Below, in pieces: positions 10,995-43,568 of a DNA stretch of 64,000 nucleotides. The position numbers were made by a program, and so were the translations under genes. Numbering within the stretch: position 1 is the first letter of the stretch; each line of letters starts with the position of its first letter. The notes beneath the pieces are model-generated. The model was not told the DNA's origin. It saw only the letters and a program-made list of their open reading frames with translations, and did no database searches. Source of the DNA: Chitinophagaceae bacterium (GTDB taxonomy: Bacteria; Bacteroidota; Bacteroidia; Chitinophagales; Chitinophagaceae); the NCBI GenBank assembly GCA_019752045.1, contig JAIEMP010000008.1, positions 136,676-200,675 on the forward strand. The letters are read 5' to 3'.

Positions 10995-11033
10995 TTAATT
11001 GGTCGGCCCGACCATGTCGGTCTGACCAATTAA
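10995..11033. repeat. Nested inverted repeat after rpiB
   Basis: An outer 10-bp arm pair TTAATTGGTC (10995-11004) and GACCAATTAA (11024-11033) encloses an inner CCGAC/GTCGG hairpin (11008-11020). It begins 13 bp after the rpiB stop and precedes the T-tailed terminator, so the rpiB mRNA would end with two stacked hairpins. Confidence 0.7.
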
Positions 11034-11045
11034 TGATCAGCAATT

Positions 11046-11501
11046 TTACATGCAGGCGATCTTTTGCACCCTTCTTTCGTGGCGGCCACCTTCAAATTCA
11101 GTGGTCATAAACGTGTTCACCATTTTTTCTGCATCACCTTCACGCACAAAACGTGCAGGGATACAAATCACATTGGCATTGTTATGGCTTCTTGCCAGTT
11201 GCGACAGTTCTTCGCCCCAGCAAATAGCAGCACGGATACCCTGGTGTTTATTGGCTGTAATAGCTACGCCATTTGCACTGCCGCAAAGCAATATTCCAAA
11301 AGACGCTTCACCGCCTTCTACTGCCTTTGCAACAGGGTGAGCAAAATCAGCATAATCAACCGACTCGGTTGAATAGGCTCCAAAATCTTTAAACGGAATC
11401 CCTTTTCCTTCTAAAAAAGAAATGAGGTCTTCTTTATAATCAAATCCCGCATGATCGCATCCAATGGCTACGGGTTTTGTTAAATCAAATGGAGAATGCA
11501 T
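11046..11501 (-). CDS. rpiB: Ribose-5-phosphate isomerase B
   Basis: Interconverts ribose 5-phosphate and ribulose 5-phosphate in the pentose phosphate pathway. The protein (151 residues from Met at 11501) has the family N-terminus VAIGCDHAGFDYK and the active-site segment GILLCGSANGVAITANK with Cys and Thr/Ser in the expected places. It also has the conserved RAAICW and SHNNANV. The frame extends to a TTG at 11522, but that codon lies inside the promoter -7 element, so the ATG at 11501 is preferred. tatC lies upstream on the same strand but is separated by the four-helix-bundle cassette. Confidence 0.95.
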   Translation of the reverse strand: MHSPFDLTKPVAIGCDHAGFDYKEDLISFLEGKGIPFKDFGAYSTESVDYADFAHPVAKAVEGGEASFGILLCGSANGVAITANKHQGIRAAICWGEELSQLARSHNNANVICIPARFVREGDAEKMVNTFMTTEFEGGRHERRVQKIACM

Positions 11502-11519
11502 GGCTGAAAATTTAGAATT

Positions 11520-11539: not shown

Positions 11540-11569
11540 AGCCGATAGACATTAGCCGATAGCCGATAG
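11540..11569 (+). repeat. Three AGCCGATAG 9-mers, left side of the four-helix-bundle cassette
   Basis: Copies start at 11540, 11554 and 11561; the last two overlap by 2 bp. They are the inverted counterparts of CTATCGGCT copies at 12057 and 12085 on the far side of the four-helix-bundle gene. Confidence 0.8.
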
Positions 11570-11679
11570 TCCAAAGTCATTAGTAGGTAATGATTAGTCT
11601 TGATCGTTTCGAAACTGAATTTTCTATGATCCTTTGAATAATTGTGTCTTTTGTATATTTTAATACCATAAATAAAGTT

Positions 11680-12042
11680 ATGCCCGGTTATAAAACATTA
11701 CTTGCTTATCAAAAAGCAAAACAAGTGGCGGATGCTATTTTTCTAGCTTCAAAAAAATTTCCTATTGAAGAAAGATATAGCTTAACCGATCAGATAAGAA
11801 GAAGTTCACGAGCTGTTTGTGCCTGTATGGGAGAAGCATATCGAAAAAGAAAATACCCGGCACATTTTGTAAGCAAGCTCACAGATTCTGATATGGAAAA
11901 CGGAGAGACAGAAGTGTGGCTTGATTTTGCAAAAGATTGTAGTTACCTAAAAGCTGAGGAGTACCAAACAATCTATTCACAAAACGAAGAAGTTGCCAAG
12001 CTTCTTGCGTACATGATTAATCATCCTGAAAAATTTTTGTAA
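11680..12042 (+). CDS. Four-helix-bundle protein (S23 / 23S rRNA intervening-sequence protein family)
   Basis: 120 residues from the ATG at 11680; an upstream ATG at 11644 would add 12 unlikely residues. It shows the family pattern of an N-terminal YKTLLAYQKAKQVADAIF helix, DQIRRSSRAVCACMGEAYRK in helix 2, then FVSKLTDSDMENGETEVWLDFA and a final helix ending MINHPEKFL. Relatives sit in intervening sequences of 23S rRNA genes or between genes in Bacteroidota, and the fold is shared with the Avd protein of diversity-generating retroelements. It is antisense to tatC and rpiB and bracketed by inverted 9-mers. Molecular function is unknown. Confidence 0.85.
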   Translation: MPGYKTLLAYQKAKQVADAIFLASKKFPIEERYSLTDQIRRSSRAVCACMGEAYRKRKYPAHFVSKLTDSDMENGETEVWLDFAKDCSYLKAEEYQTIYSQNEEVAKLLAYMINHPEKFL

Positions 12043-12056
12043 CGCTCCTGACTTCA

Positions 12057-12093
12057 CTATCGGCTAAAAACTATCTACTCACCACTATCGGCT
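12057..12093 (-). repeat. Two CTATCGGCT 9-mers, right side of the four-helix-bundle cassette
   Basis: Copies at 12057-12065 and 12085-12093 are exact reverse complements of the AGCCGATAG copies at 11540-11569. The last copy ends 8 bp before the tatC stop codon. Confidence 0.8.
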
Positions 12094-12101
12094 GTTTTAT
12101 G

Positions 12102-12980
12102 TCAGCTCCACTCTTCCTCTTCTTTCTTTATTTGCCGGCGATGAATACGGAGGCTTAGAAAAATACTGAACTCGTATAATCCATATAACGGAATAGTAAC
12201 CAACGCTAAACTGAACGGATCGGTTGAAGGAGTAATAATGGCAGCTAATATGAGAATAACAACAAATGCATATTTGCGGATGCGGCGTAACGTAACCGGT
12301 GTAAGAATGCCTACTCTTGTTAACAGCATTACTACAACAGGCAGTTGAAATAACAAACCAACACCAACGGTTAAGTAAATCAGGTTTTCAAAATAGTCAC
12401 TGATGGTTGGTTTAAATTCAATTAACGGACTCAACGAATAGGTTGAATAAAAATTTACCATGAAAGGTGTAAGTACAAAATAACCAAAGGAAACACCCAT
12501 GAAAAATAAAACAGAGATCCATAAAATGGCACCCGTTGTTCCTTTACGTTCTTTATCACTTAATGCCGGACGAACAAATTTCCAGATCTCCCAAAACACA
12601 TACGGGAAAGCCAAAATAAAACCGCCGGTAAAACCAACAGTGAAGGTGGTGAGGAACTGTTCCGTCATGGCATTGCTCTGGAACTTGATAGAAAAATCGC
12701 CCAAACAAAGTTGATCTACATGTAGCCATTGGCCAATACTGCACAACCATTTATAGGTAATGAAATTATTATGTGCCGGGCCCATGAAAATATTATTCAC
12801 CACATAGGTAATATTAAACAGCACAATACCCGAACCAATCACAACAGCAATCAATGCACGGATCACATGCCAGCGCAGTTCTTCCAGATGATCAATAAAG
12901 GTCATCTCGGCCTGCTCCCCCCCCGACTTGCCACGGATGCGTTTAAAAATATTCCTGCGTTCAGATTTTGTTTCGGCCAC
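12102..12980 (-). CDS. tatC: Sec-independent translocase subunit TatC
   Basis: Multi-pass inner-membrane receptor for twin-arginine signal peptides. The hallmark MTFIDHLEELRWHVIRA lies near the N-terminus, followed by about six hydrophobic segments. GFTGGFILAFPYVFWEIWKF and the late PSTDPFSLALVTIPLYGLYE are typical TatC sequences. The frame extends to 13106, but a GTG at 12980 (VAETKSERRN) lies 18 bp after a -7 promoter element and gives a normal length of 292 residues. The C-terminus is highly charged (RRQIKKEEEEWS). No tatA is visible in the window. Confidence 0.93.
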   Translation of the reverse strand: MAETKSERRNIFKRIRGKSGGEQAEMTFIDHLEELRWHVIRALIAVVIGSGIVLFNITYVVNNIFMGPAHNNFITYKWLCSIGQWLHVDQLCLGDFSIKFQSNAMTEQFLTTFTVGFTGGFILAFPYVFWEIWKFVRPALSDKERKGTTGAILWISVLFFMGVSFGYFVLTPFMVNFYSTYSLSPLIEFKPTISDYFENLIYLTVGVGLLFQLPVVVMLLTRVGILTPVTLRRIRKYAFVVILILAAIITPSTDPFSLALVTIPLYGLYEFSIFLSLRIHRRQIKKEEEEWS

Positions 12981-12998
12981 GGTAAATGATTTCAATTG

Positions 12999-13006
12999 CA
13001 AATGTA
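12999..13006 (-). promoter_or_regulatory. tatC -7 promoter element (TACATTTG)
   Basis: Minus-strand TACATTTG fits TAnnTTTG. Its position inside the longer open frame argues for the GTG start at 12980. Confidence 0.55.
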
Positions 13007-13091
13007 ACCCGAAAAAGATGAGGAGAAGTGAACGAGGAAAAATTAGGTTTTCGTATAATTTAGCCATAACCTCAAAGAGCCATGGGCAATA

Positions 13092-13121
13092 AAAAAGCTG
13101 TCTCATTTGAGACAGCTTTTT
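13092..13121 (-). terminator. Terminator, older copy of the zinc-protease terminator
   Basis: A 13-bp stem (AAAAAGCTGTCTC, 13092-13104, with GAGACAGCTTTTT, 13109-13121) with a 4-nt loop. It resembles the terminator at 14142-14170 (GGCTGTCTC...GAGACAGCC). It lies at the corresponding distance from a decayed copy of that gene's 3' end, so the pair was duplicated together. Confidence 0.8.
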
Positions 13122-38383: not shown

Positions 38384-38386
38384 AAA

Positions 38387-38427
38387 CACGCTGCAAGCTG
38401 CAAGCTGCAAGCAATGAGCTTGAAGCG
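38387..38427 (+). repeat. GCTGCAA tandem repeat and hairpin between rplM and rpsI
   Basis: Three tandem GCTGCAA units (38390-38410). They lie within a larger dyad in which CACGCT (from 38387) pairs with AGCGTG and CAAGCT pairs with AGCTTG. The element sits in the only sizeable gap between the two genes. Confidence 0.6.
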
Positions 38428-38458
38428 TGGAGCCAAAAGCTAAAAAGCTTAATAAAAA

Positions 38459-39867: not shown

Positions 39868-39915
39868 AAATGCTTTCTGCCTGAGTTTGTAAAACAACTT
39901 AAGCAGGAAGCATTT
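39868..39915 (+). terminator. Hairpin between rpsB and tsf (terminator or attenuator)
   Basis: A 13-bp stem AAATGCTTTCTGC/GCAGGAAGCATTT (one G-U pair) with a 22-nt loop, followed by a TTTTC-AAATT-rich stretch before the tsf start. It could reduce read-through into tsf. The tail is not a perfect T run. Confidence 0.55.
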
Positions 39916-39953
39916 TCAAATTTTCAAATTCAAAAATTTTCAAATTAGTAAAC

Positions 39954-41492: not shown

Positions 41493-43568
41493 ATGAATAA
41501 ACTTGAAAATTATATTACCGGTCGCTGGATCACAGGCGATGGAGATGGACAATTATTGTACAATGCGGTAACAGGTGATGCTATTGGAGCAGCCTCATCA
41601 AAAGGAATTGATTTTGCAGCTGCTGTAAACTATGCCCGTACAGTTGGTAATCCCGCCTTGCGAAAAATGACGTTCCATGAACGTGGAAACATGTTAAAAG
41701 CGTTAGCGATTCATCTTCGAAATCATCTCGATAAATTTTATGCAATTTCTTACCAGAGTGGCGCTACCAAAGCCGATAGCTGGGTAGATATTGAAGGTGG
41801 TATTGGTAATTTATTTGCCAATGCATCGCTTCGCCGCAAATTTCCGGATGAAGTATTTTGTATTGATGGCGAAAGTCATAACCTCAGCAAAAACAATACA
41901 TTTATGGGCACTCATATTCTTGTACCAAAAGAAGGAGTAGCCATTCATATCAATGCATTTAATTTTCCGGTGTGGGGAATGCTTGAAAAAATTGCAGTGA
42001 ATTTATTGGCTGGTATGCCGGCCATTGTAAAACCTGCAACCGTAACATCCTACTTAACGGAAGCAGTAGTAAAAGAAATCATCGCATCAAACATATTACC
42101 CGAAGGTGCGTTGCAATTGATCTGCGGCAGTGCAGGTGATTTGCTGGAGCATGTAACAAGTCAGGATATAATCACCTTCACCGGCAGCGCATCAACAGGA
42201 TTGATGTTGAGAAGTCAGCCAACCATTTTAAGAGAGAATGTGCCTTTTAATATGGAAGCAGATTCTCTGAATTGTATTGTGTTGGGAAACGATGTGGAGC
42301 CAAACATGCCTGAGTGGGACATTTTTGTAAAAGAAGTCCGCAAAGAAATGACGTTAAAAGCAGGACAGCGTTGTACAGGCATCAGAAGAATATTTGTACC
42401 TGAGAATAAGATGGAAGATCTGTGGAAAGCAATTGCAACATCTTTGTCACAAACAACTATTGGCAATCCGCTCAACGAGAAAGTTAGAATGGGTTCGCTT
42501 GCAGGAGAAACACAACGCATAGAAGTAAGAGAACAGGTACAAAAATTATTAGCCTCTTCTCAAATTGTATATGGCAGTTTAGATAGTGTTAATGTGATAG
42601 ATGCCGATGCAGAGAAAGGAGCATTTCTATCGCCCATATTATTAATGAATGAAAAACCATTTGTTGCAACTGAAGTGCACGAAGTAGAAGCCTTTGGTCC
42701 GGTGAGCACCATCATGCCCTATAAAACAACCGATGAAGCCATTGCATTGAGTAAATTAGGGAAGGGTAGTTTATGCTCATCTATTGTAACAGCCGATGAT
42801 CAGATTGCTAAACAATATGTGATTGCTGCAGCAACACATCACGGAAGAATTTTGGTATTGAATAATACATGTGCAAAAGAAAGTACCGGGCACGGTTCGC
42901 CGTTACCATTGCTTGTGCATGGCGGCCCCGGTCGTGCCGGTGGTGGCGAAGAGATGGGAGGCTTACGTGGTGTAAAGCATTATCTGCAACGTACGGCTAT
43001 ACAAGGTTCACCAACTACAATAACAGCCATCACGAATGTTTATCAACCAAACGCAAAGGGAAAAGATCCCGGCAAACATCCGTTTAAAAAATATTTTGAA
43101 GAACTGCAGATCGGCGATCAGATTATTACAGAAAAAAGAATCATTACCAGTGAAGATATTGACCGCTTTGCAGATTTAAGCGGCGATCATTTCTATGCCC
43201 ACATCAAAACCACTGATTTTACAGGAACCATGTTTGAGCAACAGGTGGCACATGGTTATTTTATTATGAGTATTGCAGCCGGTTTATTTGTTAACAGTTA
43301 TGAAATAAATCCTGTGTTGCTCAACTATGGTATTGATGAACTGCGGTTTACAAAACCAGTTTATCCGGGTGCGGAAGTGTTTATCCGTTTTACCTGCAAA
43401 GAAAAATTGCCGAATGATAAACGTATCGTAGAAAATCCCGAAGATTTTAAACGGGGGGATGATATTGAAAAAGGAATTGTAAAATGGCTGGTAGAATTTT
43501 TTGATGAAACAAATGAAATTACCGGTATCGCTACAATTTTAACGATGGTAAAAAAAATACATCAATAA
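41493..43568 (+). CDS. paaZ: PaaZ: fused oxepin-CoA hydrolase/aldehyde dehydrogenase
   Basis: 691 residues joining an aldehyde dehydrogenase domain (1-515) to a MaoC-type hydratase domain (about 530-690, DRFADLSGDHFYAH). The ALDH part has TFTGSASTG, the general-base Glu in FNMEADSLNC, and catalytic Cys in KAGQRCTGIRR. PaaZ opens the oxepin-CoA ring and oxidises the semialdehyde in phenylacetate catabolism. No paaABCDE ring-oxygenase genes are visible here, so the pathway may be encoded elsewhere. An enoyl-CoA hydratase follows 48 bp downstream. Confidence 0.93.
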   Translation: MNKLENYITGRWITGDGDGQLLYNAVTGDAIGAASSKGIDFAAAVNYARTVGNPALRKMTFHERGNMLKALAIHLRNHLDKFYAISYQSGATKADSWVDIEGGIGNLFANASLRRKFPDEVFCIDGESHNLSKNNTFMGTHILVPKEGVAIHINAFNFPVWGMLEKIAVNLLAGMPAIVKPATVTSYLTEAVVKEIIASNILPEGALQLICGSAGDLLEHVTSQDIITFTGSASTGLMLRSQPTILRENVPFNMEADSLNCIVLGNDVEPNMPEWDIFVKEVRKEMTLKAGQRCTGIRRIFVPENKMEDLWKAIATSLSQTTIGNPLNEKVRMGSLAGETQRIEVREQVQKLLASSQIVYGSLDSVNVIDADAEKGAFLSPILLMNEKPFVATEVHEVEAFGPVSTIMPYKTTDEAIALSKLGKGSLCSSIVTADDQIAKQYVIAAATHHGRILVLNNTCAKESTGHGSPLPLLVHGGPGRAGGGEEMGGLRGVKHYLQRTAIQGSPTTITAITNVYQPNAKGKDPGKHPFKKYFEELQIGDQIITEKRIITSEDIDRFADLSGDHFYAHIKTTDFTGTMFEQQVAHGYFIMSIAAGLFVNSYEINPVLLNYGIDELRFTKPVYPGAEVFIRFTCKEKLPNDKRIVENPEDFKRGDDIEKGIVKWLVEFFDETNEITGIATILTMVKKIHQ

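Follow-up and report, generated by a model that had tools for sequence, protein, structure and literature searches.

The unit at positions 11540 to 12093 of the window (the whole stretch of 64,000 nucleotides analyzed here) is probably a one-gene hairpin element of the rRNA intervening sequence (IVS) kind, with a gene for an intervening-sequence protein (IVP) in the loop, two inverted arrays of heptanucleotides (heptads) as the stem, and a putative reading of these heptads by the IVP; we put the probability of this reading at about 0.6. On our best reading, such hairpin elements are the general, mostly intergenic form of the rRNA IVS. The architecture recurs around IVP genes in several phyla, and each clade has its own heptads, which are retained over long times. 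We infer both that the IVP binds the heptads and how the unit moves.

An IVP gene between inverted heptad arrays

The gene in the loop (11680 to 12042, forward strand) encodes a four-helix-bundle protein of 120 amino acids. The first-pass annotation had placed it in the 23S-rRNA intervening-sequence protein family, and profile searches agree with this placement, giving scores above the curated cutoffs of both PF05635 (E value of 9e-27; 93.8 bits versus a cutoff of 33.8) and TIGR02436 (E value of 4e-24; 85 bits versus 24). The fold is also that of the family: in Foldseek, the AlphaFold model (pLDDT of 97) matched XCC0516 (2gsc; TM score of 0.88) and BT_0352 (2rld), with a weaker match to Avd (4dwl and 8ub8). 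Both 2gsc and 2rld have five chains, and the Xanthomonas protein is called a toroidal homopentamer in the available text of PMC4990558. With a median dN/dS of 0.05 (44 of 57 pairs with finite dS), the protein of IVP cassettes is under strong purifying selection. The IVP ORF is the sole listed ORF of at least 60 amino acids between 11540 and 12093, where we found no transposase.

The gene is flanked by two arms. The 5′ arm (11540 to 11599, forward strand) is an imperfect heptad array of 8.5 units, identified by autocorrelation and by reading; from 11540 onward, its units are AGCCGAT, AGACATT, AGCCGAT, AGCCGAT, AGTCCAA, AGTCATT, AGTAGGT, AATGATT, and AGTC. The 3′ arm (12052 to 12093, reverse strand) is an inverted array of six units, read in register from 12093 downward as AGCCGAT, AGTGGTG, AGTAGAT, AGTTTTT, AGCCGAT, and AGTGAAG. 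By reading, AG starts eight of the nine heptads of the 5′ arm and all six of the 3′ arm. In the autocorrelation, 7 was the best lag for the 5′ arm but not for the 3′ arm alone (lag 3, 17; lag 14, 17; lag 7, 16 of 30), so that the tandem 7-nucleotide units in this intergenic DNA are recognized by lag in the 5′ arm and by reading in the 3′ arm.

Three copies of AGCCGATAG on the left (11540, 11554, and 11561) and two inverted copies on the right (12057 to 12065 and 12085 to 12093) had been reported, and all are present. The observation is real and larger than first stated, since these copies are units of the two inverted, imperfect period-7 arrays; they are spaced 14, 7, and 28 bp apart, always a multiple of 7. 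The proposal of a small inserted cassette with paired ends, similar to an rRNA IVS, is supported, while the 9-mer as its boundary gives way to the period-7 array. Random occurrence, named at the outset as part of what would undo the proposal, would give 0.19 copies of AGCCGATAG in the window, which has six; no shuffle out of 100 reached six. Genome-wide, there are 52 occurrences versus 18 for a reversed control. We rejected the sixth window copy, at 41771, as a solo element: it lies inside an ORF and is probably due to chance.

The suggestion that the flanking repeats could form a stem is borne out by the predicted folds, in which the arms pair on both strands. On the forward strand, the outermost AGCCGATAG pair closes the structure, and on the reverse strand, the inner parts of the arms pair; each fold has a z score of −3.3, with none of 100 shuffles as good. 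As in an IVS, the inverted ends are therefore predicted to be able to form a stem around the IVP ORF. The location is not that of an rRNA gene: the window unit lies between tatC and rpiB, and there was no Rfam match in L019 or L025.

The antisense placement between these two genes was described correctly. An 8-bp gap (12094 to 12101) separates the edge of the 3′ arm from the stop codon of tatC (12102 to 13106, reverse strand), whose Pfam match begins at residue 72 and whose listed ORF start is probably too early. On the other side lies rpiB (11046 to 11502, reverse strand), with an ATG start and a TTG further upstream. After the rpiB stop comes a short palindrome rich in GC, GGTCGGCCCGACCATGTCGGTCTGACC (10997 to 11033), which may be a terminator or the remains of an array.

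Recurrence of the arms, their motifs, and gene-less arrays

The genome of origin contains 16 PF05635 matches. In 14 of these, the upstream flank paired best with its own downstream flank when compared with the 15 others, and the best lag was 7 or 14 in 12 upstream and 11 downstream flanks (8 in two upstream flanks and one downstream flank). The heptads vary by gene, with examples such as GATGAGT, GGGCAAT, GTTTGTA, and GATGTAG. The expectation that AGCCGATAG would stand beside other four-helix-bundle genes of the genome and its relatives failed, the heptads differing by clade; since each IVP clade bears its own heptads, AGCCGATAG is not a signature of the family, and we rejected it as a family-wide boundary signal.

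At the level of genus and order, 126 ORF hits yielded 118 cassettes after removal of duplicates, ORFs shorter than 90 amino acids, and hits with short flanks. The inverted-arm score exceeded the 95th percentile of mismatched pairs in 101 cassettes, compared with 11 in direct orientation. The best lag was 7 or 14 in 93 upstream and 87 downstream flanks, and 8 in 11 and 16, respectively. A score above 14 was reached by 101 of the 118 cassettes versus 13 of 363 controls taken from the own genome (ORFs called mechanically, 110 amino acids or longer, some of which are not genes), and both flanks were at lag 7 or 14 in 84 cassettes versus 11 controls. The arrays of two cassettes, L018 and L107, are long and almost perfect.

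For a set spanning several phyla, we took the best 80 of at least 572 matches to a single peptide pattern, a choice that makes the set lean to canonical IVPs; 77 loci were usable after those with short flanks were dropped. Within these best 80 of at least 572 matches, the inverted-arm score exceeded the 95th percentile at 47 of the 77 loci (direct orientation, 12) and a value of 14 at 54 (control ORFs, 13 of 363), both flanks were at lag 7 or 14 at 50 (controls, 11 of 363), and the best lag was 7 or 14 in 57 upstream and 57 downstream flanks. According to their record titles, these best 80 of at least 572 matches come from Deltaproteobacteria, Planctomycetota, Acidobacteria, Anaerolineales, Nitrospirae, Betaproteobacteria, Clostridia, Fibrobacter, and candidate phyla, clear arms not being present in every member of each group. 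Five of the named genomes were searched whole, yielding 20 loci, of which 19 were usable (one had a short flank), 7 repeating loci of the named set with identical arms and 12 being new; the inverted score exceeded the 95th percentile in all 19, although the direct match was stronger in L392 and equal in L399.

IVP cassettes also occur on plasmids, where 58 records match, 22 of them from Nostoc. Among the 12 cassettes that were fetched, the best lag of the 3′ flank was 7 in 11 and 8 in one, and the inverted score exceeded the 95th percentile in eight, against a background in which many mismatched pairs share motifs; L319 and L329 match better in direct than in inverted orientation. One cassette, L330 from an Azospirillum plasmid, has its IVP ORF inside the 23S rRNA, in a stretch with no annotated gene, with heptads in both arms by reading; our script missed these arms owing to an overlap between the ORF start and the 5′ array. 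Of the plasmid cassettes fetched, 3 of 12 have cas-gene settings: L319 and L324, from cyanobacterial plasmids, lie between cas6 and cas4, and L323, also from a cyanobacterial plasmid, lies between cas10/cmr2 and a cmr3-family gene.

The more alike two proteins are, the more alike are their arrays (Mantel r of 0.63; 0 of 2,000 permutations). This was calculated for 84 of the 118 cassettes, those in which both arms were clear, a requirement by which the sample favors clear arrays. The correlation is weak at 40 to 60% identity and not significant below 40% (109 of 2,000 permutations). It holds mostly between positional orthologs; at nonorthologous sites, a common motif was found in three of three pairs at 70 to 80% identity and in 4 of 19 at 60 to 70%. 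The heptads were similar in 37 of 39 pairs with a dS of at least 1 or saturated (pairs that share members and are not independent), compared with 2.4% of random pairs, which makes recent descent alone an unlikely cause of their likeness. In the same comparison, the spacer from array to start codon was similar in 5 of 20.

The arrays further share polarity and length. A lag-7 segment scored above the limit in 112 of 195 upstream flanks and in 114 of 195 downstream flanks; in these, G exceeded C in 96 of the 112 5′ arrays and C exceeded G in 101 of the 114 3′ arrays, and 71 and 85 of them, respectively, had four to five units (medians of 31 and 32 nucleotides). The IVP gene is sense to both neighbors in 97 of the 118 genus and order cassettes and in 59 of the 77 named loci (from the best 80 of at least 572 matches), and antisense to both in 6 and 2; the window copy is one of these rare antisense cassettes.

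Heptad arrays also occur without a gene. Four genomes lacking IVP genes had no such period-7 array in the 394 kb sampled; four with one or two IVP genes had 2 in 220 kb, and eight with five or more had 63 in 1340 kb, after exclusion of a run of N in G018. The number of IVP genes correlated with that of solo arrays with a Spearman coefficient of 0.76 over 16 genomes, a nonrandom sample uncorrected for kinship. Of the 20 stretches sampled from the own genome, 4 had been chosen for their AGCCGATAG sites, and the other 16 contributed 15 arrays in 320 kb. Two genomes with seven and five IVP genes (G023 and G025) had none in the 40 kb sampled from each, and Geobacter sp. AOG1, with five IVP genes, had four lag-7 arrays in 400 kb, which is no excess over lags that are multiples of 3 (eight at lag 9).

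Gene-less arrays have motifs that match those of cassettes. In the own genome (G000) and the window, 13 of 21 solo arrays match own cassettes above 0.35, the best result among 14 genomes; the next best, G004, matches 11 of the same 21 with nine cassettes, the own genome has the most cassettes, and 8 of the 21 match no own cassette at this level. In G011, 6 of 10 solo arrays match own cassettes, again the best of 14 genomes, at a solo-array threshold of 19 compared with 20 for G000. The window itself contains a gene-less heptad array that fills the gap between rplM and rpsI (38385 to 38455), beginning directly after the rplM stop, with L009 as its nearest own motif (cosine of 0.32). A gene-less period-8 array between rpsB and tsf (39911 to 39946) carries the motif of the own cassette L020 (cosine of 0.91).

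Probable gain and loss of cassettes and competing explanations

Cassettes are present in some and absent from other relatives at orthologous sites. Both tatC and rpiB were found in the fetched stretch of 12 of 14 same-genus genomes, and when we compared their spacing, the IVP gene was present in 3 of the 12 (truncated looking in one, G009) and thus not universal at this site. The closest relative, G012, has similar arms but no gene; five genomes hold gene-less heptad arrays of other motifs (by reading), two have just 26 to 57 bp, and G005 has a different spacer of 536 bp (L038) with internal near-repeats and no match to the window IVP. At the L017 site, between pfkA and pyk (by reading of sequence), only G000 of 14 genomes carries the gene, the 13 others having 48 to 139 bp. 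At the L018 site, the gene is present in G000 and G007, absent from seven genomes, several of them with a different heptad array, and five have one alignable flank. At the two loci where filled and gene-less sites were compared, we saw no clean target duplication or exact end. On sequence evidence, presence and absence at these three sites supports insertion, loss, and reuse of sites by different families. The first-pass proposal of a mobile unit is accordingly favored as far as insertion goes, with movement itself being a deduction.

This patchiness bears on a rather unlikely alternative, namely, that the IVP and its arrays are a resident, nonmobile regulator with its binding sites, in the manner of TRAP-type operon control. 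Strong purifying selection on the IVP, the sense orientation inside operons, and the solo arrays between ribosomal-protein genes would fit such a regulator, and paired heptad sites with an unidentified regulator have been proposed for Geobacter metallireducens (available text of PMC2700814). Against it, the gene is found in only 1 of 14 close relatives at the L017 site and 3 of 12 at tatC-rpiB, the same site holds different motifs in relatives, and the neighboring genes are, by reading, functionally unrelated.

It is quite unlikely that polymerase slippage creates heptamers anywhere and that IVP genes merely lie in repeat-rich spacers. Slippage through a 7-nucleotide polymerase contact has been proposed for bacterial heptamers (Mrazek 2007, as cited in the available parts of PMC4679880 and PMC4692102), and long, near-perfect arrays such as those of L018 and L107 would fit it. 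It does not explain why inverted arrays stand on both sides of the IVP in 101 of 118 cassettes but 13 of 363 control ORFs, why their polarity is constant, why the motif is kept along with the protein in 37 of 39 pairs at or near synonymous saturation, or why 394 kb from four genomes without IVP genes contained no arrays. Least of all do we expect that the arrays came first, as gene-less hairpins into which IVP genes that recognize them insert: rRNA IVSs are located in rRNA hairpins, relatives hold gene-less arrays of other motifs at the L018 and tatC-rpiB sites, and the gene-less L017 site of G012 has array-like sequence resembling the 3′ arm (by reading), but the arms seem to arrive with the gene, since among orthologs the motif goes with the protein clade and the arrays that relatives hold at the site are unlike both arms.

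In the hairpin element that we prefer, the IVP, a five-chain toroid in solved relatives, would bind the RNA transcribed from its own array (or the array as single-stranded DNA), each subunit taking about one 7-nucleotide unit; 5 × 7 = 35 nucleotides fits arrays of four to five units. Such binding would protect, process, or regulate the hairpin and would decide where copies persist or insert, while the DNA step would be done by host enzymes. We rejected a reverse transcriptase of the own genome as the mover, PF00078 having no match there at an E value of 1e-3. In the window, the element would have entered between tatC and rpiB, antisense to both, and in the closest relative similar arms would have been left without the gene.

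Relation to known repeats and elements

The function of the S23/IVP family and the origin of bacterial period-7 repeats may be one system, which predicts that the motif can be taken from the flanks of a genome's own IVP gene. Inverted heptads around this family in many kinds of bacteria suggest that it is the partner of the scattered 7-letter repeats. In its widest form, the idea is that bacterial heptanucleotide repeats have IVP/S23 as their missing partner, which as a toroidal pentamer takes one heptad per subunit, with each clade having its own heptad; that hairpins of IVP gene and arrays form a new class of mobile RNA/DNA elements with a single gene, of which rRNA IVSs are the best-known members; and that these elements gave rise to the gene-less arrays of cyanobacteria, Xanthomonas, Geobacter, Beggiatoaceae, and Bacteroidota. 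We regard this as tentative, a little short of an even chance, having lowered our confidence because the Geobacter sample lacked a period-7 excess.

The combination of one gene with many gene-less palindromic copies of matched motif is also known from REP/RAYT systems. The window cassette differs from these in having no transposase and in arms that are heptad arrays. With the diversity-generating retroelements, it shares the homologous four-helix fold of Avd (4dwl and 8ub8), and the authors of one study, in its available text, note that PF05635 resembles Avd (PMC10053308); it differs from them in the absence of a reverse transcriptase match from the own genome. The 23S rRNA IVP is named in a figure legend of a CRISPR survey (PMC10910872, in part), and the cas-flanked plasmid cassettes may explain IVP listings near CRISPR operons and other unrelated loci.

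The heptanucleotide repeats described earlier are likewise short 7-nucleotide arrays, mainly intergenic and in some cases inverted pairs (PMC4679880, PMC4692102, and PMC2700814, available parts). They include TAACTGA in Beggiatoaceae and cyanobacteria, for whose transmission “no mechanism is evident” (PMC4679880), GGGAATC in Xanthomonas and GGGGA(T/C)T in Nostoc (PMC4692102), the seven-nucleotide motifs of the Nostoc trnL intron (PMC4476775, excerpt), and the looped sites of five tandem heptanucleotides in G. metallireducens, for which a global regulator, itself unidentified, was put forward (PMC2700814). The available parts of PMC4679880, PMC4692102, and PMC2700814 name no four-helix-bundle partner, and those of two genome papers that mention four-helix-bundle genes (PMC5524665 and PMC8700078) say nothing further on them. 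In the literature covered, which largely leaves aside subscription papers and preprints, no paper ties IVP genes to heptad repeats outside rRNA.

Closely related to the window unit is the 23S rRNA IVS, as in Coxiella burnetii, where an IVP ORF also lies in a stem-loop of inverted ends; heptameric repeats of variable number precede the S23p ORF, and RNase III cuts a stem of 28 bp (PMC4990558, available text). The IVP also occurs in rRNA insertions of CPR bacteria (PMC11270868, available text). The elements described here differ from the 23S rRNA IVS in that the window copy and the others examined, save L330, are intergenic, with no Rfam family matched at the 20 loci tested from the best 80 of at least 572 matches. 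They differ also in that each clade has its own heptad and gene-less copies are spread over the genome.
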